Assembly: GCA_017302295.1 (NCBI GenBank)
Contig: JAFLDS010000004.1
Span: forward strand, 62,001 to 126,000
Reading direction: 5' to 3'
Source of the DNA: Thauera sp.
GTDB taxonomy: Bacteria; Pseudomonadota; Gammaproteobacteria; Burkholderiales; Rhodocyclaceae
Length of the DNA stretch: 64,000 nt
The notes under the pieces were generated by a model that saw only the letters and a list, made by a program, of their open reading frames with translations, was not told where the DNA came from and searched no databases. Position numbers and translations under genes: made by a program. Shown one piece after another: positions 3,467 through 34,042 of this stretch. Each line of letters opens with the position of its first letter. Positions within the stretch are counted from its first letter, which is position 1.

Positions 3467-3469
3467 GTT

Positions 3470-3724: not shown

Positions 3725-5641
3725 TCAGGCCTCCCGGCCGGCGATCAGGCCATGCTGTTCCAGGTAGGCCAGCACCTGGTCAGCCGCCTGCTCCACCGTG
3801 CAGCCGGTGGTGTCGATACGCACTTCGGGCGTCTCGGGCGCCTCGTAGGGCGAGTCGATGCCGGTGAAGTTCTTCAGCTCGCCGCGCCGCGCCTTCTTGT
3901 AGAGACCCTTCGGATCACGCTCCTCGGCCACCGCCAGCGGCGTGTCGACGTGGATCTCGACGAACTCGTCCTGCTCCAGCAGGCTGCGCGCCATGCGGCG
4001 CTCGGAGCGGAAGGGCGAGATGAAGGCGGTCATCACGATGAGGCCGGCGTCGACCATCAGCTTGGCCACCTCGCCAACGCGGCGGATGTTCTCGACGCGG
4101 TCGGCATCGGTGAAGCCGAGGTCCTTGTTCAAGCCGTGACGCACGTTGTCGCCGTCGAGCAGATAGGTGTGGCGGCCCATCGCGTGCAGCTTCTTCTCGA
4201 CCATGTTGGCGATCGCCGACTTGCCCGCACCCGACAGGCCGGTGAGCCACAGCACGCAGCCCTTCTGCCCCTTCATCGCGGCACGCGCGGCCTTGTCCAC
4301 ATCCACGTGCTGGAAGTGGATGTTGTGCGCGCGGCGCAGCGCAAAGTTGAGCATGCCGGCGCCGACGGTGTTGTTCGACAGGCGGTCGATCAGGATGTAG
4401 CCGCCGGTGTCGCGATTGTTGGCATAGGCGTCGAACGCGATCGGCCGGTCGAGGCTGATGTTGCACTCGGCGATACCGTTGAGCTCCAGCTTCTTCGCCG
4501 CGATATGCTCGAGCGTATTGACGTTCACCTGGTGCTTGATCTCGGTGATCGTCGCGGTGACCGTCTTGGCGCCGATCTTCAGCAGATAGGGCCGTCCCGG
4601 CAGCATCGGCTCGTCGTGCATCCACACCAGCGTGGTCTCGAACTGGTCGGCCACCTCGGCAGGCGCGTCCACCGTGGAGATGACGTCGCCGCGCGAGATG
4701 TCGATCTCGTCGTCCAGCGTCAGCGTGATCGACTGCCCGGCCACCGCCTGCGGCAGGTCGCCGTTGCGGGTGACGATGCGCGCCACCGTGCTCTGCTTGC
4801 CTGAAGGCTGCACGCGGATGCGGTCGCCCGGGCGGATCACGCCGCTCGCCACCTGCCCGGCAAAACCGCGGAAGTCCAGGTTGGGGCGGTTCACCCACTG
4901 CACCGGCAGGCGGAACGGCGCGCGCTGCATGCGCGCGTCGTCGATCTCCACGGTTTCGAGGAAACCCATCAGCGTGGTGCCGTGGTACCAGGGCATCGCG
5001 CTGCTGGGCTCGATGATGTTGTCGCCCTTGAACGCCGACATCGGGATGAAGGTCACCTCCTGCAGCCCGAGCTGCTGCGCGAAGGCGGAAAAGTCCTCGA
5101 CGATGTGGCGGAAAGTCTTCTCCGAGTATTCGACCAGGTCCATCTTGTTGATCGCCACCACGATGTGGCGGATGCCCAGCAGCGACACCAGGTAGCTGTG
5201 GCGGCGGGTCTGCGTCAGGATGCCCTTGCGCGCATCGACCATCAGCACCGCGACATCGGCGGTCGAGGCGCCGGTGACCATGTTGCGGGTGTACTGCTCG
5301 TGGCCCGGGGTGTCGGCGACGATGAACTTGCGCTTGTCCGTCGAGAAAAAGCGATAGGCCACGTCGATCGTGATGCCCTGCTCGCGCTCGGCGGCCAGGC
5401 CGTCGACCAGCAGCGCGAAGTCGATCTCGTCGCCCTGCGTGCCCCACTTCTTCGAGTCGGCCTCCACCGCGGCGAGCTGGTCCTCGAACAGCATCTTCGA
5501 TTCATACAGCAAGCGCCCGATCAGCGTGCTCTTGCCGTCGTCCACGCTGCCGCAAGTGATGAAGCGCAGCAGGCTCTTGTTCTCGTGCGACTTCAGGTAC
5601 TGCTCGATGTCGGTGGCGATCAGATCCGATACGTGTGCCAT
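3725..5641 (-). CDS. cysNC: Fused sulfate adenylyltransferase GTPase subunit / APS kinase
   Basis: Two-domain protein of 638 residues. The N-terminal ~430 residues are CysN, the GTPase subunit of ATP sulfurylase: P-loop GSVDDGKST (residues 31-39), [12 protein letters not shown] and [10 protein letters not shown]. The C-terminal ~195 residues are APS kinase (CysC): [35 protein letters not shown] and [13 protein letters not shown]. With CysD it turns sulfate and ATP into APS, and the kinase domain then makes PAPS. The same fusion is known as NodQ in rhizobia, where it supplies PAPS for sulfated Nod factors. cysD lies one base upstream. Because the fusion makes PAPS, it could feed the sulfotransferase encoded at 29063-30025; that link is inference. 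Full length, nothing missing. Confidence 0.97.
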
Positions 5642-5642
5642 C

Positions 5643-6560
5643 TCAGAAGTACCCCTCTTGTTTCTTCTTTTCCATCGAGCCGGCCGAATCGTGGTCGATC
5701 ACGCGCCCCTGGCGCTCCGACGTCTTCGTCAGCAGCATCTCCTGGATGATGGCCGGCAAGGTGTCGGCCTCGGACTCCACCGCACCGGTCAGCGGGTAGC
5801 AGCCCAGCGTGCGGAAGCGCACCTTCTTCTTCATCGGCACTTCGCCGGGGCGCAGCGGCATGCGCTCGTCGTCGACCATGATCAGCGTGCCGTCACGCTC
5901 GACCACCGGCCGCTCGGCCGAGTAATAGAGCGGCACGATGGGCACGTTCTCGAGGTAGATGTATTGCCAGATGTCGAGCTCGGTCCAGTTCGACAGCGGA
6001 AACACCCGCATCGACTCGCCCTTGTGCTTGCGGGCGTTGTAGAGCTTCCACAGTTCGGGGCGCTGGTTCTTCGGGTCCCAGCGGTGGCCGGCGGTGCGGA
6101 ACGAGAACACGCGCTCCTTGGCGCGCGACTTCTCCTCGTCGCGCCGCGCGCCGCCGAAGGCCGCATCGAAGCCGTACTTGTCGAGCGCCTGCTTGAGGCC
6201 CTCGGTCTTCATGATGTCGGTGTGGATCGCCGAACCGTGGGTGAAGGGGTTGATGTCCTTCGCCACGCCCTCAGGGTTGATGTGCACCAGCAGATCGAAG
6301 CCCAATTCCTGCACCATGCGGTCGCGGAAGGCGTACATGTCGCGGAACTTCCAGCGGGTGTCGACGTGCAGCAGCGGAAACGGCGGCTTGGCCGGATAAA
6401 AGGCCTTCATCGCCAGGTGCAGCATCACCGCGCTGTCCTTGCCGATGGAGTACAGCATGACGGGGTTGTCGGCCTCGGCGACGACCTCTCGCATGATGTG
6501 GATGCTTTCGGCTTCGAGCCGCTGCAGGTGAGTGAGCGTTGTGGATGGCAGATCGTTCAT
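5643..6560 (-). CDS. cysD: Sulfate adenylyltransferase subunit 2
   Basis: Catalytic PP-loop ATPase subunit of ATP sulfurylase, 305 residues, the usual length. Visible: the PP-loop [51 protein letters not shown], and the C-terminal [12 protein letters not shown] tail characteristic of CysD/NodP. It forms a heterodimer with the GTPase half of CysNC, encoded one base downstream, so translation is probably coupled. It is transcribed divergently from cysQ across a 149-base gap that holds a perfect 12-base palindrome (6640-6651). Confidence 0.97.
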
Positions 6561-6639
6561 GAACAGGTTTCCTGTATCGGGCCGACGCGCATGGTCACCG
6601 CTGGCAGACGGGCGCGGGCATCCGATTTCGTCGGAAAGA

Positions 6640-6651
6640 GGAAATATTTCC
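6640..6651. promoter_or_regulatory. Perfect 12-bp palindrome in cysD/cysQ divergent region
   Basis: GGAAATATTTCC is a perfect inverted repeat in the 149-base gap between the divergent cysD and cysQ starts. Its place suits a regulator controlling both genes. I cannot name the regulator; CysB sites are long and degenerate, so this is not claimed as one. A TATAAA box at 6691-6696, 14 bases before the cysQ ATG, may be the cysQ -10 element, but no good -35 is seen at the right distance. Confidence 0.35.
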
Positions 6652-6709
6652 GGAAAAGGCGCTATTAAACCGCGTTCCTCACGCGCTGAATATAAAAGCG
6701 ATCGCTAAA

Positions 6710-7528
6710 ATGGCATCCAATCTGTACCAACCCGGATCTGCCGACGTGACGAACCCGTCAAGCATCGAGCGACTCGACCTGCTCGAACAACTGATTCCGG
6801 TCATCCGCGCCGCGGGCGACGTGGTCATGGCCATCTATGAAACCGACTTTGCCGTGCGCGGCAAGGACGACGCCTCACCCGTCACCGAAGCCGACGAGCG
6901 CGCCGAAGCGCTGATCGTGCCGGCGCTCGAAGCGCTGCTGCCGGGCGTGCCGGTGGTTGCCGAGGAAGCGGTCGCGGCGGGCCTGATCCCCGCCGTCGCC
7001 GAGCGCTTCTGGCTGGTCGACCCGCTCGACGGCACCAAGGAATTCATCAGCCGCAACGGCGAGTTCACCGTCAACATCGCGCTGATCGAGCATGGGGTGC
7101 CGGTCCTGGGCCTGGTCCATGCGCCGGTACAGAAGAGGATCTATGCAGGCGCCGCGGGCTGCGGGGCCTTCATCGAGAACTGCATCGGCCGCCGGCCGAT
7201 CCGCTGCCGCCGCCCGCCGGTCGAGGGGCTCACCGTGGTCGCCAGCCGCTCGCACGGCGATGCCGCCGCGCTCGACGCCTTCCTCGCCGGGCGCAAGGTG
7301 GCCGAACTGAAGAGCGCCGGCTCGTCGCTCAAGCTGTGCCTGATCGCTGCGGGCGAAGCCGACCTCTATCCGCGTCTGGGCCGCACCATGGAATGGGACA
7401 TCGCCGCCGGCCATGCGGTGCTGGCAGCCGCAGGCGGGCGCGTCACCGAACTCGCGGGCTGCGATCTGAGCTACGGCAAGCCGGGCTTCGACAATCCTCA
7501 CTTCGTCGCGCGCGGTCTCGAGGGCTGA
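6710..7528 (+). CDS. cysQ: 3'(2'),5'-bisphosphate nucleotidase (CysQ)
   Basis: Inositol-monophosphatase superfamily enzyme, 272 residues, that hydrolyses PAP to AMP. PAP is the product left after PAPS-dependent sulfation or reduction. Metal-site motifs are all present: PVVAEEAV, WLVDPLDGTKEF and WDIAAGHAVL. The ATG at 6710 lacks a clear ribosome site; a GTG at 6746 is another possible start. A TATAAA at 6691-6696 would place transcription start only a few bases before the ATG, so the message could be nearly leaderless. Divergent from cysD, and followed 21 bases on by a permease gene. The grouping is consistent with sulfur-nucleotide metabolism. Confidence 0.93.
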   Translation: MASNLYQPGSADVTNPSSIERLDLLEQLIPVIRAAGDVVMAIYETDFAVRGKDDASPVTEADERAEALIVPALEALLPGVPVVAEEAVAAGLIPAVAERFWLVDPLDGTKEFISRNGEFTVNIALIEHGVPVLGLVHAPVQKRIYAGAAGCGAFIENCIGRRPIRCRRPPVEGLTVVASRSHGDAAALDAFLAGRKVAELKSAGSSLKLCLIAAGEADLYPRLGRTMEWDIAAGHAVLAAAGGRVTELAGCDLSYGKPGFDNPHFVARGLEG

Positions 7529-7549
7529 ACGCCCCCTCGACCGGCCCGC

Positions 7550-9286
7550 ATGACCGCCTACGCTGTCCTCGGCTCCATCGGCCTCCTGCTGGGGCTGCTG
7601 ATTCATGGCCGCTTCAGCCCGGCGGTGCTGTTCTCGGGCTGCGCCGGAATCTACTACCTGCTCGGCTGGGTCGACCAGACCGCGCTGCTCGACAGCTTCT
7701 CCAATCCGGCGCTGGCCACGCTGATCCTGCTGCTGCTCGTTTCGCTCGCGCTCGAGCGCTCACCGCTGCTCGACCGCCTGTCCGACACGCTGCTCAAAGG
7801 GCGCCCGGCAATGGCGACCCTGCGGCTGTCGAGCTTCGCCGTGGCGATGTCGGCCTTCATGAACAACACCGCGGTGGTCGGCGCCCTCCTCGGCATGGTC
7901 AGCCGCCAGCGGCTGCAGCCGGCGTCGCGCTTGCTGATCCCCTTGTCCTACGCCTCCATTCTCGGCGGCATCACCACGCTGGTCGGCACCTCGACCAACC
8001 TGGTGGTGAATTCGTTCGCCGTCAATGCAGGGCTGCCGGCGCTGGAGATGTTCCAGTTCTCCATCGTCGGCGTGCCGGTCGCCCTCGCCTGCATCGCCGT
8101 GCTCGTGCTCACCAACCGGCTCCTGCCCGCCCACGCGCCGGGCGACAGCGAAGCGGCCTCGCCCTACTTCCTCGAGGCGCGCGTCGCACCCGGCTCGGCG
8201 CTCATCGGCCGCAGCATCGAGCACAACCAGATGCGCAGCCTCGACGGCCTGTTCCTGCTCGAGATCGAGCGCCACGATCGACTGATCTCGCCCGTCGGCC
8301 CTGACGAAGTGCTGCAGGAAGGCGACGTGCTGGTCTTCACCGGCGAAGTCGGCAAGATGCAGGCCCTGCAGCGCTTTGCGGGCCTGCAGGTGTTCGGCGC
8401 CCGCGCCGATGCGTTGCTGAAGTCCAACCTGGTCGAGGTGGTGATCGCCAGCCAGTCTGAACTCGCCAACCGCACACTGCGCGAAGTGGATTTCCGCACC
8501 ATGTTCGACGCCGGAGTGGTCGGCATTCGCCGCGGCGACAAGCGCCTTACCGGGCAGCTTGGCCGCATCCCGCTGCGGGTCGGAGACTGCCTGCTGCTCG
8601 CCGCCGGCGCCGATTTCTTCCAGCACCGCAACCTCGACCGCAACTTTCACGTCCTGAACGGGCTCGGCTTGCGCCCGAAGCTCACCAACACCCAGAGCGC
8701 GGCGGCCTTGTCCGGCTTCGCCTTGGTGATCGCGCTATCGGCGCTGGAATGGCTGTCGCTGTTCAGCGGGCTGCTATTGCTGATGGCCGGCCTGCTCGCC
8801 ACCCGGCTGCTGACGCTGGCCGAGATGCGGCGGCGCTTCCCGTTCGACCTGCTGCTCACCATCGGCTCCTCGCTGGCGATGGCGAAGGTGCTCGAAACCT
8901 CGGGCGCGGCGGAACTGATTGCCGGCTGGATGCGCGCGGCTTTCGCCGACTTCGGCGTGATGGGCGCCTTCGTCGGCGTGTATCTGATGACCGTCGTGCT
9001 GACCGAGCTCATCTCCAACAACGCCGCAGCCGCGCTCGTCTTCCCGATCACGCTGAGTACCGCCCGGGCGTTCGGCGTCGACCCGCTGCCTTTCGTGATG
9101 ATCGTCGCCTACGGCGCGAGCGCCGGCTTCCTGATTCCCTTCGGCTACCAGACCCACCTGATGGTGTATTCGGCCGGCCGCTACCGCATGGGCGACTTCC
9201 TGCGCGCCGGCCTGCCCGTCAGCCTGGTGTACGGAATCGGCGTGCTGGCGCTGGTGCCGCTCGCCTTCCCATTCGTGCGCAACTGA
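7550..9286 (+). CDS. SLC13-family permease with two TrkA-C (RCK-C) domains, probable sulfate/anion transporter
   Basis: Inner-membrane anion permease of the DASS/SLC13 type, 578 residues. Helices occupy about residues 1-200, then come two soluble TrkA-C domains (around 205-370, with SALIGRSIEHNQM, GDVLVFTGEV and NRTLREVDFRTMF), then more helices to the end. Substrate-site signatures of the family are present twice: SAFMNNTAVVG and STNLVVNSFAVN in the first half, LTELISNNAAAAL and GYQTHLMVYSAG in the second. Relatives with this layout include sulfate permeases. With cysQ directly upstream and cysD/cysNC beyond it, sulfate uptake is the best guess, but the substrate is not proven by sequence. 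Confidence 0.85.
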   Translation: MTAYAVLGSIGLLLGLLIHGRFSPAVLFSGCAGIYYLLGWVDQTALLDSFSNPALATLILLLLVSLALERSPLLDRLSDTLLKGRPAMATLRLSSFAVAMSAFMNNTAVVGALLGMVSRQRLQPASRLLIPLSYASILGGITTLVGTSTNLVVNSFAVNAGLPALEMFQFSIVGVPVALACIAVLVLTNRLLPAHAPGDSEAASPYFLEARVAPGSALIGRSIEHNQMRSLDGLFLLEIERHDRLISPVGPDEVLQEGDVLVFTGEVGKMQALQRFAGLQVFGARADALLKSNLVEVVIASQSELANRTLREVDFRTMFDAGVVGIRRGDKRLTGQLGRIPLRVGDCLLLAAGADFFQHRNLDRNFHVLNGLGLRPKLTNTQSAAALSGFALVIALSALEWLSLFSGLLLLMAGLLATRLLTLAEMRRRFPFDLLLTIGSSLAMAKVLETSGAAELIAGWMRAAFADFGVMGAFVGVYLMTVVLTELISNNAAAALVFPITLSTARAFGVDPLPFVMIVAYGASAGFLIPFGYQTHLMVYSAGRYRMGDFLRAGLPVSLVYGIGVLALVPLAFPFVRN

Positions 9287-9308
9287 TCGCGCTCAAGCGC
9301 GCTCCTAC
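9287..9308 (-). repeat. REP-like element, single copy
   Basis: TCGCGCTCAAGCGCGCTCCT followed by AC matches the consensus seen at four other places in the window (roughly GTAGGAGCGsGCTTGAsCGCGA on one strand). It starts on the base right after the stop codon of the SLC13 permease gene and lies between two convergent genes, which is typical of extragenic palindromic repeats. Confidence 0.75.
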
Positions 9309-9339
9309 ACGGCGATGCCGTGGTTTCCTGGGCGCCCGC

Positions 9340-9591
9340 TCAATTCGCCGACAGGCGGGTGACGAATTCGACCACCGTGCCGACGGTGGCGAAGGAATTG
9401 CCGTCGATCTCGTCGTCCGGCACCGCGATGTCGAATCGCTCCTCGATGGCGTGGATCACCGCGAGCACGGCCATGGAGTCGAGCTCCGGCACGCTGCCCA
9501 GCAGCGCGGTGTCGGCGTCGAAGCTCAGGCCGCGGCCATTCAGGCACAGCACTTCGTCGAGCAGCGACAGGATTTCTTCCTGGATCTTCAA
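9340..9591 (-). CDS. Acyl carrier protein, XrtA-locus type
   Basis: Small acidic carrier of 83 residues. The phosphopantetheine site is the Ser of ELDSMAVLAVIHAIEERF, followed by the DEIDGNSFATVGTVVEFV helix typical of ACPs. I set the start at a TTG (bases 9591-9589): a GGAGAG ribosome site lies about 9 bases upstream, the protein then begins KIQEEILSLL as expected for an ACP, and longer forms would add an unrelated proline-rich leader. It faces the acyl-CoA ligase gene across a 109-base divergent gap. ACP plus ligase pairs are standard parts of exosortase A loci; the acyl group carried and its target are not known. Confidence 0.88.
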   Translation of the reverse strand: MKIQEEILSLLDEVLCLNGRGLSFDADTALLGSVPELDSMAVLAVIHAIEERFDIAVPDDEIDGNSFATVGTVVEFVTRLSAN

Positions 9592-9618
9592 GGGAACAAC
9601 TCTCCAAACCCCAATACG

Positions 9619-9643
9619 ACCGGTCCGCGGCAGCGCGGCCGGT
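9619..9643. promoter_or_regulatory. Inverted repeat between divergent ACP and ligase genes
   Basis: ACCGGTCCGCG and CGCGGCCGGT form a 10-11 bp inverted repeat with a one-base bulge and a GCAG loop, centred in the 109-base gap between the two divergent starts. It could be an operator serving both genes or a structured leader of the ACP message. A TATACT at 9660-9665 could be a -10 for the ligase gene, but its -35 is poor. Confidence 0.35.
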
Positions 9644-9700
9644 TTCAAGAAGGGCGCATTATACTCAGGCCGCTCCGAAACGACCCGATCCTGACCGACA

Positions 9701-11284
9701 ATGCCTGCCGCGACCCTGCTCCACGAACTCGTCCTCGCCTCCGCTAGCCGTTCCGACGAGCGCGTCGCGCTGACCAGCGGCAAGCTGGAACTGAACTACG
9801 CCGCACTCGCCCGCCAGTGTGAACAGTTCGCCGCAGGGTTGATCGCGCTCGGCCTCGCGCGCGCCGAGCGGGTCGCGGTGTACCTGGAAAAACGCCCCGA
9901 ATTCGTCACCACCTGCTTCGGCACCGCAGCGGCCGGCGGCGCCTTCGTGCCGGTCAATCCGCTGCTCAAACCCGAGCAGGTGGGCTACATCCTGCGCGAT
10001 TGCAAGGTGCGCGTGCTGGTGACCAGCGCCGAGCGCCTCGCGCTGCTGCTCCCCGAACTCGCCAACTGCCACGACCTGCGCCAGGTGATCGTGGTCGGCG
10101 AACCGAAGGAGCTGCCGACCGTCGAGGGCGCCTCGGCGCACCGCTGGAACGAGGTCTGCGACGCCCCCCCGCGCGCCGGACACCGCGTCATCGACACCGA
10201 CATGACGGCGATCCTGTACACCTCCGGCAGCACCGGCCGCCCCAAGGGCGTAGTGTTGTCGCACCGCAACATGGTGATGGGCGCGCAGAGCGTCGCCAGC
10301 TATCTGGGCAACCATGAAGGCGACACGCTGCTCGCCGCGCTGCCGCTGTCCTTCGACGCCGGCTTCTCGCAACTCACTACCGCCTTTCATGCCGGCGCCC
10401 GCGTCGTGCTGCTCAACTACCTGCTGCCGCGCGACGTACTCAATGCGGTGGTGCGCGAACAGGTCACCGGCCTCACCGCAGTGCCGCCGCTGTGGATCCA
10501 GCTCGCCCAGCTCGACTGGCCGGAAAGTGTCACCCCCCACCTGCGCTACATCGCCAACACCGGTGGCCGCATGCCGCGCGAAACCCTCGCCGCGCTGCGC
10601 GCCCGCCTGCCGCAGACCCGCCCCTTCCTGATGTACGGGCTCACCGAAGCCTTTCGCGCCACCTACCTGCCTCCGGAGGAAATCGACCGGCGCCCGGATT
10701 CGATCGGCAAGGCCATCCCCAACGCCGAAGTGCTGGTGCTGCGCGAGGACGGCAGCGAATGCGCGCCCAACGAACCCGGCGAACTGGTGCAGCGCGGCGC
10801 CCTGGTCGGCCTTGGCTACTGGAACGACCCGGAGAAGACCGCCGAGCGCTACCGGCCGCTGCCCCACGCCATCGCCGGCCGCGAGAGCGGCCTGGTGCTG
10901 CCCGAGATCGCGGTGTATTCGGGAGACACCGTGCGCCGCGACGAGGACGGCTTCCTGTACTTCATCGGCCGCCGCGACGAGATGATCAAGACCTCGGGCT
11001 ATCGCGTCAGCCCCAATGAGGTAGAAGAAATCCTCTACGCCACCACGCTGGTCGGCGAATGCGCGGCCTTCGGCGTGGCGCACGACACCCTCGGCCAGGC
11101 CATCGTCGCCGTCGTCACACCACCGCCCGGCGTCAGCCTCGACCCCGCCGCCCTGCTCGCCGAATGCCGCAAGCGCATGCCCGCCTACATGGTTCCGGCG
11201 CGCATCGAGGTGCGCGACGGCGCGCTGCCACGTAATCCGAACGGGAAGATCGATCGCAAGGCGCTGGCGGCAGGCCTCTCTTAG
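9701..11284 (+). CDS. Acyl-CoA ligase (AMP-forming), exosortase A-associated
   Basis: ANL-superfamily adenylating enzyme, 527 residues. Motifs: the P-loop YTSGSTGRPKG (residues 173-183), MYGLTEAFRATYLPPEE, the hinge region GRRDEMIKTSGYRVSPNEVEE-like, and the catalytic C-terminal Lys516 in NPNGKIDRKAL. It matches the exosortase A-associated ligase family (TIGR03098 by my recognition). It probably activates an acyl or amino acid group and loads the ACP encoded divergently next to it. The PLP decarboxylase gene that usually follows is 0.9 kb downstream, separated here by a VapBC module and a REP pair. Confidence 0.92.
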   Translation: MPAATLLHELVLASASRSDERVALTSGKLELNYAALARQCEQFAAGLIALGLARAERVAVYLEKRPEFVTTCFGTAAAGGAFVPVNPLLKPEQVGYILRDCKVRVLVTSAERLALLLPELANCHDLRQVIVVGEPKELPTVEGASAHRWNEVCDAPPRAGHRVIDTDMTAILYTSGSTGRPKGVVLSHRNMVMGAQSVASYLGNHEGDTLLAALPLSFDAGFSQLTTAFHAGARVVLLNYLLPRDVLNAVVREQVTGLTAVPPLWIQLAQLDWPESVTPHLRYIANTGGRMPRETLAALRARLPQTRPFLMYGLTEAFRATYLPPEEIDRRPDSIGKAIPNAEVLVLREDGSECAPNEPGELVQRGALVGLGYWNDPEKTAERYRPLPHAIAGRESGLVLPEIAVYSGDTVRRDEDGFLYFIGRRDEMIKTSGYRVSPNEVEEILYATTLVGECAAFGVAHDTLGQAIVAVVTPPPGVSLDPAALLAECRKRMPAYMVPARIEVRDGALPRNPNGKIDRKALAAGLS

Positions 11285-11722: not shown

Positions 11723-12126
11723 GGTACATGCTGGACACGAACATCCTGATCTACCTGATCAGGAACAAACCTGCCGCAGTAGCCGACAAGGTCAATGCTC
11801 TCGGTGAGGACGACACGCTGTGCATGTCCTTTTTCACCTTCGCCGAGTTGCTCAAGGGTGCCGAACGCAGCACCCGCAAACCGGAAGTCCTGCGCCGCAT
11901 CGAGGGTTTGACGCGTGAAATCCCGGTTGTTCACGGCACGAAGCGCGCACTGTGCGAGCACTACGCCGTCCACTTCACCCGACTGAAAGAAGCGGGCATG
12001 CCGGTCGGGGCAAACGACCTCTGGATCGCCTGCCACGCCCTAGCCGAGGGTGCCGCGCTGGTCACCAACAACACGCGCGAGTTCGAGCGTATCGACGGTT
12101 TGCCCATCGAGAACTGGGCCGTCTGA
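11719..12126 (+). CDS. vapC: VapC-type PIN-domain toxin
   Basis: 135-residue PIN-domain ribonuclease. The acidic active-site residues are visible: Asp in YMLDTNILIYLI, Glu in TFAELLKGAE, Asp in VGANDLWIACHAL and the final NNTREF region. VapC enzymes cleave tRNA or rRNA and are held inactive by VapB. The GTG at 11719 overlaps the vapB stop; an ATG at 11728 is a second possible start. The gene looks intact. Confidence 0.92.
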   Translation: MRYMLDTNILIYLIRNKPAAVADKVNALGEDDTLCMSFFTFAELLKGAERSTRKPEVLRRIEGLTREIPVVHGTKRALCEHYAVHFTRLKEAGMPVGANDLWIACHALAEGAALVTNNTREFERIDGLPIENWAV

Positions 12127-12187
12127 CACCGCCGTTCGTATCGCGTACGCCTGCCGATCAATCCCTATCCCAGCCGCCCCCGAGACG

Positions 12188-14087: not shown

Positions 14088-14154
14088 CAGTCTTCGCAGT
14101 TTGCCGCATCCCGTACGACAATTGCAGCCGGTCAACAAAGAATTCCTGCGGACG

Positions 14155-20525: not shown

Positions 20526-20604
20526 CGTAACGGACGAGTGTCAAAATGCGCGGCGCCATCGCCCCCAAACGGCGACAATGGCGTGTTCTCATCCGGAGCA
20601 AGCA

Positions 20605-26340: not shown

Positions 26341-26359
26341 CGGACTGCTCAACTTCCTC

Positions 26360-27151
26360 ATGCGCATCGACCCGATTTCATCTTTCCTGCACAGGCACGC
26401 CGGCGCCCATGGCGCGGTGATGCTGATGTACCACGCGGTGCAGGCCCGTGCGGGTTCGCCCGCCTGGCCGTGGGCGGTTTCCCTTTCGCGCTTCTGCGAC
26501 CAGCTCGACTTCCTGAAGGCGGAGGGCTACCACACGCCGACCATGGCCGAGCTGGCCGCCAACCCCGATGCACCGCGCGGACGCACCGCGGTCATCACCT
26601 TCGACGACGGCTACGTCGACAACCTCGCGGCGATGGAAGCCCTTCAACAGCGTGGGATGCGCGCAACCTGGTTCATCGTCTCGGGCTCGATCGGAACCAA
26701 CCCGGCTTGGCCGGCCGACGGACGACCCGCCGGGCGTCTGTTGAATGCTGCCGAACTGCGCGACATGCAGGCCGCCGGCATGGAGATCGGCTCGCACACG
26801 GTTAGCCATGTACGCCTTCCCAGCCTCGACGATGAAGCCCTCTCGCGTGAGCTGACCACATCCAGGGCGACGCTCGAAGAGACGCTGGGCGGCCCGGTAT
26901 CGAGCTTCGCCTATCCCTACGGCGCCTGGGACGCACGCTGCGTTGCCGCCGTCCGTGAAGCCGGTTACGCCGCTGCCTGCACCACCCGCACCGGATGGGC
27001 CCTGCGTGACAGGGACCCGTTCATGCTGCGCAGGCTGACGGTGTTCAACACGGACACCACGGCAAGCCTCGCGCGCAAGCTGTACTTCGGTAGCCACGAC
27101 GTTGCCTGGTCCGACCTTGCCCGCTATGTCCTGCGCCGCGTGAGAGGCTGA
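26360..27151 (+). CDS. Polysaccharide deacetylase (NodB/CE4 family)
   Basis: 263 residues from this ATG; a TTG at 26327 overlapping the previous stop is another option. NodB motif 1 AVITFDDGYVDN (metal and base Asp pair) and motif 2 EIGSHTVSHVRLPSL (His-x3-His) are complete, followed by SSFAYPYGAWD (motif 3). The enzyme would remove N- or O-acetyl groups from a sugar chain. No signal peptide is evident, so it may act on the lipid-linked unit in the cytoplasm. It is distinct from the XrtA-type deacetylase at 60967-61806. Confidence 0.9.
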   Translation: MRIDPISSFLHRHAGAHGAVMLMYHAVQARAGSPAWPWAVSLSRFCDQLDFLKAEGYHTPTMAELAANPDAPRGRTAVITFDDGYVDNLAAMEALQQRGMRATWFIVSGSIGTNPAWPADGRPAGRLLNAAELRDMQAAGMEIGSHTVSHVRLPSLDDEALSRELTTSRATLEETLGGPVSSFAYPYGAWDARCVAAVREAGYAAACTTRTGWALRDRDPFMLRRLTVFNTDTTASLARKLYFGSHDVAWSDLARYVLRRVRG

Positions 27152-27155: not shown

Positions 27156-28121
27156 ATGAGCACCCGTGAACGCCCTCCCACCGTCTCCATCGTCATGCCG
27201 TGCTACAACGCCGCGGCACACCTCGCCACTAGCGTCGGCAGCGTGCTCGCCCAGCGTTTCGACGACTGGGAACTGATCGCCATTGACGACGGCTCCCGCG
27301 ACACGACGCTGGCCTGGCTGGAGTCACAAACCGACCCCCGCATCCGAGTGCACTCCCAACCAAACCAAGGAGTGAGCGCAACACGCAACGCCGGACTGCA
27401 ACTCGCCCGCGGTCGCTACCTCGCCTTCCTCGACGCCGACGACACCTGGGCCCCGGACTATCTGCAGCGCATGGCCGCCGCACTTGACGCGCACCCCGGC
27501 GCTGTCCTCGCCTACTGCGGCTGGCAGAATCTGGGGCTTTCCGGTGGCCGGGGGGCGCCCTTCGTGCCCCCCGACTACGAAACCCCCGACAAGGCCGAGA
27601 CGCTTTTCGCGGGCTGCCGATGGCCGATCCACGCCGCCCTTACCCGCCGCGACGCCCTGCTCGCCGCAGGCGGCTTCGAGCCCACCCTGAAGAACGCCGA
27701 GGACTATCACCTGTGGCTGAAGGTCGCGATACCCGCCCCGATCGTCAGGGTCCCCGAGGTGCTCGCCTTCTACCATTTTCATGGCCGGGAGCAGGCCTCG
27801 GGGAATCACGCGCGAGCGGCATTGCATCACTGGCATGCGCAGTTGCACTACCTTAAGATCAACCCGGCCCTCCAGACCCGCCTGGGTGGTCGACGAATCC
27901 GCGAACTGACCGCAGGCGAACTGCTCCGGCGGGGCTATCTCCGCTACTGGGCGAGGGATCTCCCCGCCGCGCGCACGATCTTCCGCAAAGTCATGCGGCT
28001 AGGTTACGGAACGCTGCGCGACTGGAAATACATGCTGCCATCGCTATTGCCGCTAAAGATGCATCGAATGCTGCTCGACCGCATTGACGGCAGTCGGTCG
28101 CACTCCCAACCGAACCCATGA
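27156..28121 (+). CDS. Glycosyltransferase family 2
   Basis: 321-residue GT-A glycosyltransferase. VSIVMPCYNAAAHLATSVGS at the N-terminus, LIAIDDGSRDTTLAWL for nucleotide binding, and the DxD-type metal motif in LAFLDADDTWAPDYL. The C-terminal third has basic helices without a clear membrane segment. It would add one sugar to the repeat unit; donor and acceptor are not readable. It overlaps the next glycosyltransferase gene by 4 bases. Confidence 0.92.
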   Translation: MSTRERPPTVSIVMPCYNAAAHLATSVGSVLAQRFDDWELIAIDDGSRDTTLAWLESQTDPRIRVHSQPNQGVSATRNAGLQLARGRYLAFLDADDTWAPDYLQRMAAALDAHPGAVLAYCGWQNLGLSGGRGAPFVPPDYETPDKAETLFAGCRWPIHAALTRRDALLAAGGFEPTLKNAEDYHLWLKVAIPAPIVRVPEVLAFYHFHGREQASGNHARAALHHWHAQLHYLKINPALQTRLGGRRIRELTAGELLRRGYLRYWARDLPAARTIFRKVMRLGYGTLRDWKYMLPSLLPLKMHRMLLDRIDGSRSHSQPNP

Positions 28122-29059
28122 CGATGCTCACCTTCGCCTTCTGCACCTTCAACCGCTGCGAGCGCCTCGAAAAACTCGTCGGCGCGATGCGCGCGCAGAC
28201 CTGCCCGGTCCCATTCGAGATCCTCGCGATCAACAACAACAGTTCGGATGCGACGCTCCAGGTCCTCGAGCACCTGTCGCGCCAGCCTGGCCCTCGGCTG
28301 CGCTGGGTGACCGAGGAAACCCAGGGCATCGTCCCCGCCCGCAATCGCGCGATCGCCGAGGCGCTGGGCAGCGACATCCTCGTCTTCATCGACGACGACG
28401 AACTGCCGGACCCCGGCATGCTTGAGGCCGCCGCAGACGCGATCCTGAACGAAGGTGCCGAATGCGTCGGCGGCCGCATCCGGATCGACTTCGAGCCCTT
28501 CGGTCGCCCCGGCTGGCTCGACGACGAGGTTGCTGGCTTCCTGGGTGCACTCGATCATGGCCCCTCTCCACTCTGGGTGCAGGACGAAAGGACACCCGTC
28601 TGGAGCGGCAACGTCGCCTACCGCATGGAGATCTTCCGCGCCGACCCGGCGCTGCGCTTCGACATCCGCTACAACCGCGAAGGCGCGGGCATCGGTGGCG
28701 GTTCGGATGCGATCATGTTCAGAACGCTGCTGGCGCGCAAGGCGCGAATCCGCTATCGCCCGGACATGGTCATCCGCCATCTGGTCGACGAATGGAAGCT
28801 GCAGCGCCGCTATTTCCTGCGGTTGCACTACCGGGCAGGCCTGCGCCGCGGGCGCTACCAGCTTCCCGAGTACCCGCGCACGGTAATGGGTGTTCCCCCT
28901 TTCCTGATTGCGCAATACCTGCGACAGGCGACTCAGGCGCTCGGCATGCAGCTTGTCGGCCGCCCGGGCGCCCTGCGTCAGGGGATGAATGCCGCCAACA
29001 CGCTCGGCTGCCTCCTCGGCTACTCACAGCGGTCTTCGCACCCGACGCCGCAGGAGTAA
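28118..29059 (+). CDS. Glycosyltransferase family 2
   Basis: 313 residues. The N-terminus reads LTFAFCTFNRCERLEKLVGA, with ILAINNNSSD and the metal motif DILVFIDDDELPDPGM; an acidic loop GAGIGGGSDAIMF lies in the catalytic half. Its arrangement (CTFNR, FIDDDE) is close to the N-terminal domain of the large fusion at 30914-34042, so the two may be related paralogues. Its start overlaps the previous gene (ATGA). The sulfotransferase gene follows 3 bases after the stop. Confidence 0.92.
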   Translation: MTMLTFAFCTFNRCERLEKLVGAMRAQTCPVPFEILAINNNSSDATLQVLEHLSRQPGPRLRWVTEETQGIVPARNRAIAEALGSDILVFIDDDELPDPGMLEAAADAILNEGAECVGGRIRIDFEPFGRPGWLDDEVAGFLGALDHGPSPLWVQDERTPVWSGNVAYRMEIFRADPALRFDIRYNREGAGIGGGSDAIMFRTLLARKARIRYRPDMVIRHLVDEWKLQRRYFLRLHYRAGLRRGRYQLPEYPRTVMGVPPFLIAQYLRQATQALGMQLVGRPGALRQGMNAANTLGCLLGYSQRSSHPTPQE

Positions 29060-29062
29060 CGC

Positions 29063-30025
29063 ATGTCGTTTTCTCAACTGCAGCGCGTCGCGAAGCTCCT
29101 CGACCCGGAGATCCGCAGCAAGAATCTCGATGCGCTCCGCCTGCGCGCCCGAGAGCTTTACTGGGCTGCAACCCGCCCGTCCCAGCCCGACCCCGTCTTC
29201 GTCATCGGCTGCTCGCGCTCCGGAACCACCGTCACCTTTGAGACGATCGCCGCATCCGGCCATTTCCGGCACTTCGACTACGAACTGCCGCAGTTCTGGA
29301 ACAGCCTGCGCGGCCCGCTCAACAACGGCTGGGCGTCGGAGGCCGTCGATGCGTCCGAGGCGCGTCCCGAACATCGTGACCGCGCGCTGGCCTATTTCTA
29401 CGCCCGCCTCGGCGCCGGCCCGGTGCTCGACAAGACCTGCATCAACACGATGCGCGTGGGCTACCTGCACAAGCTGTTCCCACAGGCAAAGTTCGTTTTC
29501 ATCCAGCGCGACGGCCGCGACAACGTCAGCTCGATGATGGACGGCTGGCGCCTCGGGCGCACCGACGGTGGCTTCGGGCTGGAGAAGTTCCTCGGCCCCT
29601 CGCCCGAACCTGTTGCGATCAACGGCGGCGAGTTCCGCGAATGGCACTTCTTCCTGCCGCCCGGCTGGCGCGACTACAACCACGCCTCGCTCGAGGAGGT
29701 GTGCGCCTTCCAGTGGCTGAGCATGAACCGCCTCGCACTCGACGCCGCGCGGCAGATTCCGCCCGGGCAATGGATCCGGGTTCGGTACGAGGACATCTTC
29801 GAGCGCCCGGTCGATATGTTCCGAGAAGTCTTCGAACGTCTCGACGTACCCTTCACCGACGCGATGCGGGCGCATTGCACCGGCCTCGTCAGCCGGCCCA
29901 CCAGCGTGGTCAAGGGCAAGCCCAAGCAGCAGAAGTGGAAGGAGAGCAACCCCGCCGCGATCGAGCGCATCCTGCCGACCATCGCGCCGCTGATGCGCGA
30001 GATGGGGTACGACCCCGATGCGTGA
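29063..30025 (+). CDS. Sulfotransferase (PAPS-dependent, P-loop)
   Basis: 320 residues with both PAPS-binding signatures: the 5'-phosphosulfate loop VFVIGCSRSGTTV (CSRSGTT at residues 50-56) and the 3'-phosphate loop FIQRDGRDNVSSMMDGW (around 145-162). A later RVRYEDIFERPVDMF segment is also typical of carbohydrate sulfotransferases. It would transfer sulfate from PAPS to a hydroxyl or amino group of the glycan. A clear AGGAG ribosome site precedes the ATG. It is flanked by glycosyltransferase genes, which points to a sugar acceptor. CysD/CysNC encoded 23 kb away can supply PAPS and CysQ can remove PAP. Confidence 0.9.
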   Translation: MSFSQLQRVAKLLDPEIRSKNLDALRLRARELYWAATRPSQPDPVFVIGCSRSGTTVTFETIAASGHFRHFDYELPQFWNSLRGPLNNGWASEAVDASEARPEHRDRALAYFYARLGAGPVLDKTCINTMRVGYLHKLFPQAKFVFIQRDGRDNVSSMMDGWRLGRTDGGFGLEKFLGPSPEPVAINGGEFREWHFFLPPGWRDYNHASLEEVCAFQWLSMNRLALDAARQIPPGQWIRVRYEDIFERPVDMFREVFERLDVPFTDAMRAHCTGLVSRPTSVVKGKPKQQKWKESNPAAIERILPTIAPLMREMGYDPDA

Positions 30026-30917
30026 CACGGCACCGGCAGTCAGCGTCGTCATCCCCGCCTACAACGCCGCCTGGTGCGTGCGCCGCGCCGTCGACAGCGT
30101 GCTGGCACAGACCTTCAGCGACTTCGAGCTGATCGTCGTCGACGACGGCAGCACCGACGACACCGCAGCGGTGCTGAACACCTACAGCGACCGGCTGCGC
30201 ATCGTCAGCAAACCGAACGGCGGCCTCAGCAGCGCGCGCAACGCCGGCATCGACGCCGCTCGCGGCCGCTACGTCGCCTTCCTCGATGCCGACGACTGGT
30301 GGCTCCCCGAGAAGCTTGCGCGCCAGGTCGCGCTGATGGACGCCGACCCGGCGCTGGTGTTCTGCTCCACCGCGGCACGCATCGAATCGCCCGAGGGCGA
30401 GCCGCTCGGCGAATGGGCTTGCGCGCGCAGCGCGCTCCCCACGCTGGAGGCGATCTTCGCCACCAACGCCCACGTCGCCGGCAGCGGCTCCGCGGTGCTC
30501 GCGCGCCGCGACGCCTTCGCCCGCAGCGGCGGCTTCGACGAGACCCTGCGCAGCCTCGAAGACATCGACATGTGGATGCGGCTGGCCGCCATCGGCGGCT
30601 ACGCCTGCGTACCGCAAGCGCTCGCGGTGATCCTGAAACGCCCGGGCAGCATGAGCGGCAACCTCGACGTGATGCGCGACGCCGCCATCACCGTGATGCG
30701 CAAGAACCGCCCCCTGCTGCCGCGCGCACGGCGCGGCGGCTTCTGGCGCCACGCCTACGCCGGCATGCTGTCCGATTTTGCCAAGTGGGCCTGGCGCTCC
30801 AACCGCCGCCGCCAGGCCCTCGGCGACGCGCTCGCCGGCCTGTGCCTGTCTCCGCTGGGGCGCGGGCGCCTGATGCTCGGCCTGCTGCTCGCCATGATGA
30901 CGAACCGAACCGTATGA
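30018..30917 (+). CDS. Glycosyltransferase family 2
   Basis: 299-residue GT-A enzyme: VSVVIPAYNAAWCVRRAVDS, ELIVVDDGSTDDTAAVL, GGLSSARNAGIDAARGRYVA and the metal motif FLDADDWWLPEKL. The ATG overlaps the sulfotransferase stop by 8 bases and the stop overlaps the next start by 4, so it is in the middle of a tightly coupled run. Basic C-terminal region without clear membrane helices. Sugar specificity unknown. Confidence 0.93.
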   Translation: MRDTAPAVSVVIPAYNAAWCVRRAVDSVLAQTFSDFELIVVDDGSTDDTAAVLNTYSDRLRIVSKPNGGLSSARNAGIDAARGRYVAFLDADDWWLPEKLARQVALMDADPALVFCSTAARIESPEGEPLGEWACARSALPTLEAIFATNAHVAGSGSAVLARRDAFARSGGFDETLRSLEDIDMWMRLAAIGGYACVPQALAVILKRPGSMSGNLDVMRDAAITVMRKNRPLLPRARRGGFWRHAYAGMLSDFAKWAWRSNRRRQALGDALAGLCLSPLGRGRLMLGLLLAMMTNRTV

Positions 30918-33900
30918 ACATGTCGGAAGCGCCGCTGCAGATCACCGTCCTGATCTGCACCCACAACCGTGTCGACCTGCTGGGCAAGGCCATCGCCTCG
31001 CTCAACCGCGCCACCCGGCCAGCCAACGCCGACATCCGCCTGTTCGTCGTCGCCAACGCCTGCACCGACGGCACGCACGGCTTCCTCGACGCCTACGCGT
31101 CCGAAGCCGGCCGCCTGCCGCTCGACTGGATCGCCGAGCCCACGCCGGGCAAGTCGCATGCGCTCAATCGCGCGCTGCCGATGCTCACCGCGCCCATCGT
31201 CGCCTTCGTCGACGACGACCACCGCGTCGATGAAGGCTATCTCGCCGGCGTCGCCGACGCGGCGCGCACCTGGCCCGAAGCGGGGCTGATCTGCGGACGC
31301 ATCCTGCCCGACTGGGACGGCACCGAACCCGAGTGGGTGCACGAAGCCGGCCCCTATCGCATCTACCCGCTGCCCGTGCCGCGCTACGACCAGGGCGACA
31401 CGCCGATGCGCATCGATCTCGACGGCAACATCCCCGGCGGCGGCAACCTCGTCGCCCGGCTCGAGGTCACGCGCAACACCGGCCCCTTCCTGACCGAACT
31501 CGGCCCCACCGGCCACGACCTCGGCGGCGCCGAAGATCTCGAATGGGTCCGCCGCGCCATGCGCCAGGGCGCAGTGCTGCGCTACGCGCCCGGCATCGTC
31601 CAGCACCACTACGTCGATGGCGAGCGCCTCACCCTGTCCTACCTGATGCGCAAGGGCTTCCAGCGCTCGAAGTCCGTCATGCGTTTCCGCCGCACCGAGG
31701 GCGGCGTGCCGCTCTACATGTGGCGCAAGGTCAGCCGCTACGCGGTGCGCAGCGCCCTGTCGATCCGCGCCCAGGCGCGGCGCTTCTACCTCGTCCGCCT
31801 GGCATCGTCGCTCGGCGAGATGAGCGGCATGCGCGAAGCCGAAGTGCAGCGCCGCCGGCGCGCGCGCCTGCCCCGCCTACCCGAGCAGAACCGCCTCTAC
31901 CTTACCGGTCTCGCCGCGCTCGCCGCCTTCGTCGCCGCGGCATTCGCCTCCGGCGGACGCTTCGATGACGCCGTCCTCCCGGCGCTCGGCATCGCGCTCC
32001 TGATGACCCTGTCCCTGGCGGTGAAGTCCGTCCGCGACTTCTCGCAGACCGGCCCCCGCCTGCGCGACGAGATCCTTTCCCGCTACCGCAGCTACGTCCC
32101 GTTCGCGATGGGGCGCCTCGGCTTCTGGACTTTCGGCGTCGGTTTCTTCGCCGCCCTGCCGGGTTCGGTGCTGGCCGTCGCTGGCGCGGAAGCGCTGGGC
32201 ACACCGCACAGCTGGCTGACCGGAAGCCTCGGCGCCCTGCTGTCGCTGGGCATCGGCACCGCCTACGTCGGATGCCACGCCCTGATACACAACCCCGGGC
32301 TCATCGTCAGTTCCTGGCAATACCGCACCCGCCACCTGCACCGGCTGTGGCACCGCCTGTCGGCGCCCGGCCTCGAACGGTTCGCGCGCACAGGGGCAAT
32401 CGCCGTCGGTGCGCTCACCATCGCGCTCGTCGCCGCCCTCTCCACCCGCGGCTTCACCGACGCCGCCCTTGCGCTCCTGTGCCTCCTGATCGGCTACGTC
32501 TGCCTCATCCACTTCGCCCTCGCCGAGCCCGAGGGACGGGCTCGCAACCGCCGCAACAGCGGGCCGCCCAACCTGCTGCTGATCGGCTCCGACACCCTGC
32601 GCGCAGACCGCATCGGCGCCAGGCGCAACGGGCAATCGCTCACGCCCAACATCGACCGCCTCGCCGCATCGGGCACGCAGTTCTCGGCCTGCTACGTGCC
32701 CTGCGCGCGCACCGCGCCCAGCCTCATCTCGATGCTCACCGGCACCTGGCCGCACACCCACGGCATCCGCGACAACTTCGTCGCCGACGACGAAACCAAG
32801 CTCGAGGTTGCCTCGCTTCCCGGCCTCCTGCGCGCACTGGGCTATCGCAACGCCGCGGTGTCGGACTGGTGCGGGGCCGACCTGGGCAAGTTCTCACTGG
32901 GCTTCGACATCCTCGATCTGCCCGACGACCAGTGGAATCTGCGCTACCTGATCCGCCAGGGGCCGAAGGACATCCGCCTGTTCCTGTCGCTGTTCCTGCA
33001 CAACCGCATCGGCCGCCTCGTGCTGCCCGAGCTCTATTACCTCGGCGGCGTCCCGCAGACCACCCGTCTGGGGCAACGCGGCCGCCGCATGCTGTCGCGT
33101 CTGGCCGAGGCCAATCAGCCCTTCCTGCTCAACCTCTTCTACTCGACGACGCACCCGCCCTTCTCGTCCGAATACCCCTACTACCTGCAGCACGCGGCCC
33201 CCGCCTACGACGGCGAATCGAAGTTCGCCATGGCACGCCTGAGCGACCCGTTCGAGATCATCCGCCGCCAGGGCGAGCCCCGCGAAGAGTTCGATCTCGA
33301 CCAGATCCTCAACCTCTACGACGGCTGCGTCGCCCAGTTCGACGCCGAGGTCGGGAAGGTTCTCAACCACCTCGAATCGAGCGGCCTCGCCGAGAACACC
33401 ATCGTCGTGCTGTACAGCGACCACGGCATGGAGTTCTTCGAGCACGGCACCTGGGGCCAGGGCAATTCCGCGCTGGGCGACTTCAGCGCGCGCGTGCCCC
33501 TCATCATCGCCGACCCGCGCCAGCCCGGCGGCCAGCGCGTCGATCAGGTCGTCCGTACCATCGACCTCGTGCCCACGCTGCTCGAACTGCTTCCCGCGCC
33601 CTCGGTGAAATGTGACGGCACCTCCCTCGTCCCCGCCATGACCGGCGCGCACGACCTGAAGCTGGGCGCTTTCAATGAAACCGGGATCTGGATCACGCCC
33701 GCACCGGGGCTACCGGACAATCACCTGAAGTATCCCGACCTGCTCGAACTGCTGGATGTGCCGGATGATGCATCCGGCACCCTCGCCATCAAGTCCGAAT
33801 ACCAGAGCATCGTCCTGCTCGCCAAGGATCGCATGGTGCGCGACGGCTGCTGGAAGCTCGTCTATCAGCCGCTCGACGAAGGCAAACAGCTCAGGCTCTA

Positions 33901-34042
33901 CAACGTCGAGAACGACCCGGGCTGCACGAAGGACATCGCCCCGGACCATCCCGAACATGTCGCGCGGCTGTGGGCCGAACTCCGCAACTGGATGGCGGGC
34001 GACATGGTGCTGCGGCGTGACGTGCGAGTCACGCCGAGTTGA
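30914..34042 (+). CDS. Fusion: family 2 glycosyltransferase + membrane region + sulfatase-like (alkaline phosphatase superfamily) domain
   Basis: 1042 residues. Residues 1-320 are a GT2 domain: ITVLICTHNRVDLLGKAIAS, and the metal motif VAFVDDDHRVDEGY (DDDH at 100-103). Residues about 330-540 carry several hydrophobic helices (for example LAALAAFVAAAFASGG, LLCLLIGYVCLIHFAL). Residues about 550-1042 are a sulfatase-like domain: LLLIGSDTLRADRIGA (metal Asp560), the nucleophile region CARTAPSLISMLTG with Thr600 in the place where sulfatases have Cys or Ser, and YSDHGMEFFEHG (Asp836/His837). Thr is the nucleophile in phosphoethanolamine and phosphoglycerol transferases, so transfer or hydrolysis of a phospho group is as likely as sulfate removal. 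The start ATG overlaps the preceding stop (ATGA); the longer frame upstream is a shadow. Confidence 0.85.
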   Translation: MNMSEAPLQITVLICTHNRVDLLGKAIASLNRATRPANADIRLFVVANACTDGTHGFLDAYASEAGRLPLDWIAEPTPGKSHALNRALPMLTAPIVAFVDDDHRVDEGYLAGVADAARTWPEAGLICGRILPDWDGTEPEWVHEAGPYRIYPLPVPRYDQGDTPMRIDLDGNIPGGGNLVARLEVTRNTGPFLTELGPTGHDLGGAEDLEWVRRAMRQGAVLRYAPGIVQHHYVDGERLTLSYLMRKGFQRSKSVMRFRRTEGGVPLYMWRKVSRYAVRSALSIRAQARRFYLVRLASSLGEMSGMREAEVQRRRRARLPRLPEQNRLYLTGLAALAAFVAAAFASGGRFDDAVLPALGIALLMTLSLAVKSVRDFSQTGPRLRDEILSRYRSYVPFAMGRLGFWTFGVGFFAALPGSVLAVAGAEALGTPHSWLTGSLGALLSLGIGTAYVGCHALIHNPGLIVSSWQYRTRHLHRLWHRLSAPGLERFARTGAIAVGALTIALVAALSTRGFTDAALALLCLLIGYVCLIHFALAEPEGRARNRRNSGPPNLLLIGSDTLRADRIGARRNGQSLTPNIDRLAASGTQFSACYVPCARTAPSLISMLTGTWPHTHGIRDNFVADDETKLEVASLPGLLRALGYRNAAVSDWCGADLGKFSLGFDILDLPDDQWNLRYLIRQGPKDIRLFLSLFLHNRIGRLVLPELYYLGGVPQTTRLGQRGRRMLSRLAEANQPFLLNLFYSTTHPPFSSEYPYYLQHAAPAYDGESKFAMARLSDPFEIIRRQGEPREEFDLDQILNLYDGCVAQFDAEVGKVLNHLESSGLAENTIVVLYSDHGMEFFEHGTWGQGNSALGDFSARVPLIIADPRQPGGQRVDQVVRTIDLVPTLLELLPAPSVKCDGTSLVPAMTGAHDLKLGAFNETGIWITPAPGLPDNHLKYPDLLELLDVPDDASGTLAIKSEYQSIVLLAKDRMVRDGCWKLVYQPLDEGKQLRLYNVENDPGCTKDIAPDHPEHVARLWAELRNWMAGDMVLRRDVRVTPS

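Follow-up and report, generated by a model that had tools for sequence, protein, structure and literature searches.

In rhizobia, the NodP, NodQ and NodH proteins combine a dedicated supply of 3′-phosphoadenosine 5′-phosphosulfate (PAPS) with a sulfotransferase acting on a glycan, beside sulfate assimilation of the adenosine 5′-phosphosulfate (APS) type. The present analysis concerns a comparable arrangement in a Thauera sp. genome (4.1 Mb, 53 contigs), in which PAPS-supply genes and a gene for a predicted PAPS-dependent sulfotransferase lie in an exosortase A (XrtA) polysaccharide locus; the window analysed is the whole stretch of 64,000 nucleotides at positions 62001–126000 of contig C34. 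The rhizobial system is likened to it by description, not by sequence, and its product is a lipochitooligosaccharide signal, not a polymer. Sulfated bacterial polymers are the subject of several other reports, drawn on here in part. The capsule cluster of Cobetia marina KMM 1449 contains the same bifunctional cysN/cysC, cysD, cysQ and sulfate permease genes, with sulfotransferase and rhamnose genes, and the sulfate of its polymer was proven chemically; however, it encodes an ABC-transporter/Kps capsule in a marine gammaproteobacterium, the polymer also carries phosphoglycerol, and XrtA is not mentioned in the available part of the article (PMC11766843). The capsule cluster of Vibrio sp. KMM 8419 similarly holds second copies of cysC, cysN and cysD with sulfotransferases, a pairing called by its authors a hallmark of sulfated polysaccharide synthesis, and sulfation was again proven chemically, although this too is an ABC-transporter capsule, of a marine Vibrio (PMC11641403). 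The synechan cluster (xss) of Synechocystis 6803 is closer in being a Wzx/Wzy-type sulfated exopolysaccharide (EPS) system with cluster-borne sulfotransferases, but it belongs to a cyanobacterium, and the words “PAPS” and “exosortase” are absent from the main text of the article (PMC8205485). Its authors stated that, to their knowledge, no sulfotransferases were known from other bacterial extracellular polysaccharide clusters (PMC8205485); such clusters are described for Pontiella (PMC7356697), Vibrio (PMC11641403) and Cobetia (PMC11766843). The putative sulfated glycosaminoglycan cluster of Pontiella sulfatireligans F21 shares with the window a PF13469-type sulfotransferase, GT2 and GT4 glycosyltransferases and a dTDP-4-amino-4,6-dideoxy-D-glucose transaminase, but comes from Kiritimatiellae, and the part of the article at hand mentions neither PAPS genes nor XrtA (PMC7356697). 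No published description linking exosortase/PEP-CTERM systems, Thauera or Rhodocyclaceae to such a sulfotransferase locus was found in the open-licence literature, covered mostly as titles and the openings of abstracts. The Thauera locus differs from them in its XrtA/Wzx setting and its lineage, in a likely role in flocculation and, possibly, in an APS-type background that frees PAPS for sulfation.

PAPS genes and a sulfotransferase gene stand together in one glycan locus of the window, which at the level of genes is the mark of a sulfated-polysaccharide cluster. Judged from its gene content, the locus probably makes an XrtA-type, Wzx-exported surface polysaccharide that would be sulfated in the cytoplasm before export. 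The sulfotransferase (29063–30025, + strand) matches Sulfotransfer_3 (PF13469) at 2.4e-23, with 84 bits against a cut-off of 27, and contains GCSRSGTT at residues 49–56 and RDGRDN at residues 149–154, the 5′ (P-loop) and 3′ phosphosulfate-binding motifs. In an alignment of 18 sequences, C50, S51, R52, G54–T56, R149, G151, D153, S156 and S157 are invariant, S53 is changed in one sequence and the remaining letters of RDGRDN are changed in two. The protein has the sulfotransferase fold, seen in the structural comparison below, and the PAPS motifs, and sulfuryl transfer itself is predicted from them. The donor would come from the genes at the left end of the window. CysNC (3725–5641, − strand), the large subunit of ATP sulfurylase fused to APS kinase, scores 1082 bits with PRK05506 (cut-off 715) and 266 bits with apsK (cut-off 138.7), and its kinase region shows the Walker A motif GLSGAGKS and FISPFRSER. 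It is accompanied by cysD, the small subunit (5643–6560, − strand, over its cut-off), cysQ (6710–7528, + strand, TIGR01331 over cut-off) and an SLC13/CitMHS-type permease with TrkA_C domains (7550–9286, + strand; matches to CitMHS, TrkA_C and Na_sulph_symp), a putative sulfate importer. The sequence-only reading had placed cysD-cysNC with an intact APS kinase, cysQ and an SLC13 permease beside the XrtA left arm, and a PAPS-binding sulfotransferase with CSRSGTT and RDGRDN loops inside the glycan cassette at 29063–30025. Profiles and motifs agree on both counts, every part that it listed is present with an intact open reading frame (ORF), and its observation of PAPS genes and a sulfotransferase at an XrtA locus is confirmed; its interpretation is partly supported. 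The gap of 0.05 kb that it gave between the sulfur genes and the left arm is right if the arm starts at an acyl-carrier-protein-like ORF, assigned by eye (9340–9783, − strand; ORF limits, true start not fixed) and ending at 9340; the next gene, the XrtA-associated acyl-CoA ligase (9701–11284, + strand, TIGR03098), begins at 9701. Promoter-like and terminator-like sites in 3400–9800 numbered one (0.5 expected) and six (3.1 expected), respectively, and no argument is based on them.

The acceptor of the sulfuryl group is a debatable issue. The AlphaFold2 model of the sulfotransferase has a predicted local distance difference test score of 80.8, residues 85–90 and 166–182 being under 50. When it was compared by Foldseek with solved structures, the best matches were the tyrosylprotein sulfotransferase TPST2 and mycobacterial STF9, followed lower down by heparan sulfate 3-O-sulfotransferases, with E-values down to 4.9e-8 and template modelling scores of about 0.5–0.6; tyrosylprotein sulfotransferases also rank first in the sequence search. 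XrtA systems sort PEP-CTERM proteins. It could thus be proposed that the enzyme, although part of the locus, does not modify every repeat of the polymer but has a different acceptor, for instance a glycolipid, a lipid-linked cap or a glycoprotein sorted by XrtA, as these nearest solved relatives, protein-tyrosine sulfotransferases by both sequence and fold, would suggest. However, the gene is placed among those for glycan assembly: a Wzx-type flippase (22155–23630), an MBOAT O-acyltransferase (23723–25282), a polysaccharide deacetylase (26327–27151) and two GT2 glycosyltransferases (27156–28121 and 28118–29059) precede it, and a third GT2 (30018–30917) follows, all on the + strand. This last one recurs as its partner: of 18 related loci from named assemblies, 16 have it no further than 2 kb from the sulfotransferase, and one of the two misses ends at a contig edge. 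Another acceptor is therefore considered unlikely, and the sugar of a polymer repeat unit is preferred.

For PAPS to be available for sulfation, the assimilation route of the genome has to be considered. The kinase of the window is the only APS kinase found in a Pfam search of the genome. PAPS_reduct matches comprise the CysD of the window, a second CysD and a CysH on contig C20, and a weak fourth on contig C6 (1.3e-4). On C20, cysI, a DUF934-like ORF, cysH, cysD and a cysN of 428 aa that lacks a kinase domain form a block, near which lie a CysB-like regulator and a permease-like ORF (names assigned by eye, except for CysH and the CysD/CysN homology). The second cysN/cysC for which the earlier reading had suggested a search thus exists as cysD/cysN lacking the kinase. 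The C20 CysH scores 253 with the APS_reductase model TIGR02055 (cut-off 235), whereas the PAPS_reductase model gives 141, under its cut-off of 254. Because the protein also passes the cut-offs of the broad models PRK02090 and TIGR00434, the cysteine pairs were needed for typing, and it has both the CC..RK..PL and the C..C motifs. In place of the PAPS-type CysH that would have spoken against a role in sulfation, the genome therefore has an APS-type enzyme, by TIGR02055 and two cysteine pairs. TIGR02055 was over cut-off in 30 of the 31 genomes searched, and the cysteine motifs were seen in all 30 loci read. Given its second cysD/cysN and its APS-type CysH, this genome should be able to reduce sulfate without PAPS, and the role of PAPS as an obligatory intermediate of assimilation is rejected. 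A weaker form of this idea is that the PAPS made in the window serves assimilation and the sulfotransferase is incidental. Some 4Fe-4S CysH enzymes accept PAPS besides APS, so an enzyme of this type might still use it, and the matches of PRK02090 and TIGR00434 are in line with that; the separate cysD/cysN by cysI, the APS-type CysH and the strong co-occurrence of sulfotransferases with APS kinase, presented below, make it very improbable.

The distribution of these genes was examined in a family survey of 249 genomes, own genome included (G-numbers denote genomes, and g6 and g60 are genus labels within the survey). Orthologues of the sulfotransferase, with 63–100% identity, occur in 17 of them, again counting the own genome, and all 17 have both APS kinase and XrtA, which in the whole family are found in 121 and 116 genomes, respectively. 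Fifteen of the 17 have the orthologue and XrtA on one contig, no more than about 28 kb apart; the remaining two, G055 and G091, have them on separate contigs. Since G091 has three sulfotransferase-like ORFs on another contig rich in XrtA-locus genes, its separation is probably a contig break. When any sulfotransferase is considered (PF13469 or PF00685, E ≤ 1e-6, a gene recorded under several searches being counted once), 89 genomes have it together with APS kinase, 8 have a sulfotransferase only, 32 the kinase only and 120 neither (p 3e-30, with genomes of one genus treated as independent and relatedness uncorrected). The corresponding numbers for XrtA and APS kinase are 63 with both, 53 with XrtA only, 58 with the kinase only and 75 with neither (p 0.10, no association). 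As the first co-occurrence is strong and the second is lacking, the presence of APS kinase tracks that of sulfotransferases and not that of XrtA in itself, and the notion that XrtA loci in general need PAPS is not borne out. At least 16 XrtA genomes have a sulfotransferase of any type no more than 60 kb from XrtA, and APS kinase is present in each of these 16, versus 47 of the 100 other XrtA genomes; counts by proximity to XrtA over all sulfotransferase types are lower bounds, among the matches listed. At the class level (369 genomes, match threshold 1e-30), 19 genomes, own included, matched the sulfotransferase, and APS kinase is present in 18 of 18 such genomes, as well as in 12 of 20 tested from the 350 without a match, so that this comparison does not discriminate. 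Seven other loci from this set, with 53–68% sulfotransferase identity, all keep two further genes close by: the GT2, no more than 2 kb away, and, no more than 12 kb away, the GT4 glycosyltransferase found in the window at 40289–41443 (− strand), which is near the sulfotransferase in many relatives. The genome of at least one of the seven (G557) is also represented among the 18 named-assembly loci, which include Aromatoleum, Thauera, Competibacteraceae, Tepidiphilus and one Bacteroidales metagenome-assembled genome and overlap the genome sets (L019 = G192, L021 = G103, L026 = G557). The joint recurrence of the sulfotransferase and its neighbours in relatives is more than chance.

The second question is what the adjacency of the sulfur genes to the XrtA locus means. 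The check for the same adjacency in relatives, proposed in the sequence-only reading, shows that it recurs: 15 of the 249 genomes, from five genera, have APS kinase no more than 60 kb from XrtA, the sulfotransferase is found in the XrtA locus of relatives, and the cysNC-cysD-cysQ-permease order near XrtA genes is kept in all eight linked relatives that were read, of 14 (Thauera G139; Aromatoleum G044, G137 and G213; g60 G060 and G175; G091; G115). An alternative reading takes the cys genes next to XrtA for an old neighbourhood feeding PAPS to any sulfotransferase of the cell, so that the adjacency means little; this is compatible with sulfation of the polymer, and its odds overlap with those of the preferred explanation. 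A number of observations favour it, and these, with some others, weigh against the preferred explanation. In nine of the 15 genomes with APS kinase near XrtA there is no sulfotransferase within 60 kb of XrtA, the listed places agreeing with the per-genome match counts. One of the nine is G091, with its probable contig break. They also include G110, G199, G220 and G238 of g60, which have no sulfotransferase at 1e-6 in PF13469 or PF00685. In G139 and G115, two more of the nine, no sulfotransferase was found among 10 ORFs each tested by Pfam (not every ORF), nor did motifs and profiles reveal one among the ORFs of at least 120 aa in G139, G115 and G060; to this extent, that linkage implies a sulfotransferase in the locus is not borne out in G139 and G115. 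Conversely, in g6 all eight sulfotransferase genomes have it within 28 kb of XrtA, while the APS kinase shares that contig at a distance of over 700 kb in G005, G118, G152, G182 and G206 and is on another contig in G070, G226 and G243; in G005 and G182, the two read, the cysNC-cysD-cysQ-permease block is whole but elsewhere. Eight genomes of the family have a sulfotransferase without APS kinase, XrtA shows no association with the kinase, and in G055, the exception among the 31 genomes typed for CysH, the sole TIGR02055 match is under cut-off and adjoins its APS kinase (contig C12, ~4.0–5.1 kb), unlike in the window. Finally, a second sulfotransferase elsewhere in the Thauera genome would share the PAPS of the window, whose APS kinase is the only one found. 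On the other side, the adjacency recurs in five genera, and the same four-gene set stands in the Cobetia cluster with its chemically proven sulfated capsule. The assumption of an old neighbourhood is thus quite possible, though somewhat short of even chances. The earlier claim that the sulfur genes are kept next to the polymer locus for the sake of sulfation is not borne out in that form, as linkage is neither necessary nor sufficient: linked genomes may lack the sulfotransferase, and g6 has it without linkage. In addition, the second sulfotransferase would share the PAPS. The cassette seems to change its sulfotransferase while the flank stays, because G175 (g60) has two weakly matching sulfotransferase-like ORFs between cysNC and XrtA.

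The second sulfotransferase is encoded on contig C12 (L062:13969–14931). Directly upstream lies a 747-aa ORF (L062:11742–13985, + strand) with pyruvate kinase, PUA_2 and ATP-sulfurylase domains, and rhodanese, Sulf_transp and Na/H exchanger genes surround the pair; the ATP sulfurylase fusion, with no APS kinase of its own, is in line with an old neighbourhood serving any sulfotransferase. Other Thauera genomes (G234 L094, and places in G193, G139 and G214, among the matches listed) have an APS kinase that is remote from XrtA but no more than 3 kb from a different sulfotransferase; these pairs represent PAPS supply beside another sulfation system.

The remaining genes of the window describe the system to which the sulfotransferase belongs. 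XrtA itself (49944–51557, − strand) has 344 bits with TIGR03109 (cut-off 208), and the associated ligase, decarboxylase, amidotransferase, FemAB, deacetylase and glycosyltransferases of this XrtA/PEP-CTERM locus are likewise all over curated cut-offs. On the + strand, the acyl-CoA ligase is followed by the XrtA-associated pyridoxal-phosphate decarboxylase (12050–13441, TIGR03099), a fusion of VanZ with a heparinase II/III-like lyase (14101–17766, ORF limits, by profile matches), which has counterparts of 46–59% identity in relatives, an RmlB-like NDP-sugar 4,6-dehydratase-type gene (18431–19492) and rmlA (20578–21483). The − strand carries a dTDP-4-amino-4,6-dideoxyhexose transaminase (35689–36813), the GT4 gene, the XrtA-associated putative O-ligase (47232–48548, TIGR03097), the XrtA amidotransferase (54757–56922, TIGR03108) and a right arm of two glycosyltransferases, FemAB, deacetylase and WecB (57466–62984). 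The transaminase stands with GtrA-like and WbqC-like genes (35689–37927), an indication that the glycan contains an amino-deoxy sugar. Two MBOAT acyltransferases (regions 23723–26340 and 42744–45226), each adjoined by an ORF without a family match at the thresholds used, suggest two separate O-acylations.

Downstream of the partner GT2, a GT2 domain is fused to a sulfatase-like domain of the alkaline phosphatase superfamily (30914–34042, + strand), with the likely start at the ATG at 30914, not 30074. The fusion noted in the sequence-only reading is real, but it is probably not a sulfatase. The domain keeps SDTLR(A/V)D and SDHGM(E/D)F, whereas the formylglycine motif C/S-x-P-x-R was not found in the window or in any of 20 hits (18 distinct genomes, two seen twice), all of which have TxPSL, so that Thr, at the nucleophile position, replaces the formylglycine Cys and Leu replaces the Arg. 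In three alignments, the residue of the solved sulfatases at this position is C, S or A, of which A presumably stems from an engineered mutant, and xPSR comes next. The identity as a formylglycine (type I) sulfatase is rejected by this motif. A Thr nucleophile is used in this superfamily by phosphoethanolamine and phosphoglycerol transferases and nucleotide pyrophosphatases, and for the fusion the activity of a phospho-group transferase or diesterase is more likely than that of a sulfatase. It is near the sulfotransferase in 15 of the 18 named-assembly loci and present in four of the seven other class-level loci.

The following mechanism may be proposed. The permease would probably bring in sulfate, which CysD/CysNC, assigned by family and motif, would convert to APS and then to PAPS. 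With PAPS as the donor, the sulfotransferase would place the sulfuryl group on a sugar of the lipid-linked repeat unit during its assembly by the GT2 enzymes, and CysQ would clear the PAP (3′-phosphoadenosine 5′-phosphate) product. PAPS would be spared from assimilation, as reduction can use the separate CysD/CysN and the APS-type CysH. The GT2-sulfatase-like fusion might add a phospho-substituent to the glycan, and the polymer, by its gene order, is likely the flocculation EPS of the genus.

This last proposal refers to Thauera aminoaromatica MZ1T, of which a mutant regains flocculation with the deacetylase gene tmz1t_3249 (PMC4784049). The legend of Fig. 5 in that article gives the cluster order as asparagine synthase, GT2, deacetylase, GT2, hypothetical protein, GT2 and sulfatase [wbbL] (PMC4784049). 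In T. aminoaromatica S2, the end of an asparagine-synthase-like ORF is followed by GT2, deacetylase, GT2, the sulfotransferase, GT2 and GT2-sulfatase, with XrtA 25 kb further on; the S2 sulfotransferase has close to 78% identity to that of the window. MZ1T, known here by its annotation order, thus has the S2 order with the sulfotransferase in the “hypothetical” slot, and mz1t_3251 should therefore be the orthologue, by gene order and not by sequence. Sulfation of the MZ1T EPS is not mentioned in the available part of the article, and the published composition, four sugars and only “possible nonsugar substitutes”, speaks against it (PMC4784049).

Sulfated glycosaminoglycan-like polymers were present in every granular-sludge EPS sample of one study, in which few abundant organisms had sulfotransferase hits at the main threshold and more at a laxer one (PMC10483923), and it has been called unclear which community members make them (PMC7356697). 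It may tentatively be suggested that a sulfated EPS, dependent on XrtA and related to flocculation, is widely distributed among Rhodocyclaceae and certain other lineages of the class, made with the sulfotransferase corresponding to mz1t_3251 and possibly bearing a phospho-substituent from the fusion, and that it is a source of these unexplained sludge-granule polymers. A conserved sulfotransferase with its PAPS supply in a floc-forming genus offers a concrete, deletable gene for a test. The locus suggests a sulfated polymer that has gone unrecognised until now, similar to those found in sludge granules without an assigned producer, and, if this is true, sulfated bacterial polysaccharides would extend from marine capsules and cyanobacteria to the XrtA-type EPS of wastewater betaproteobacteria.

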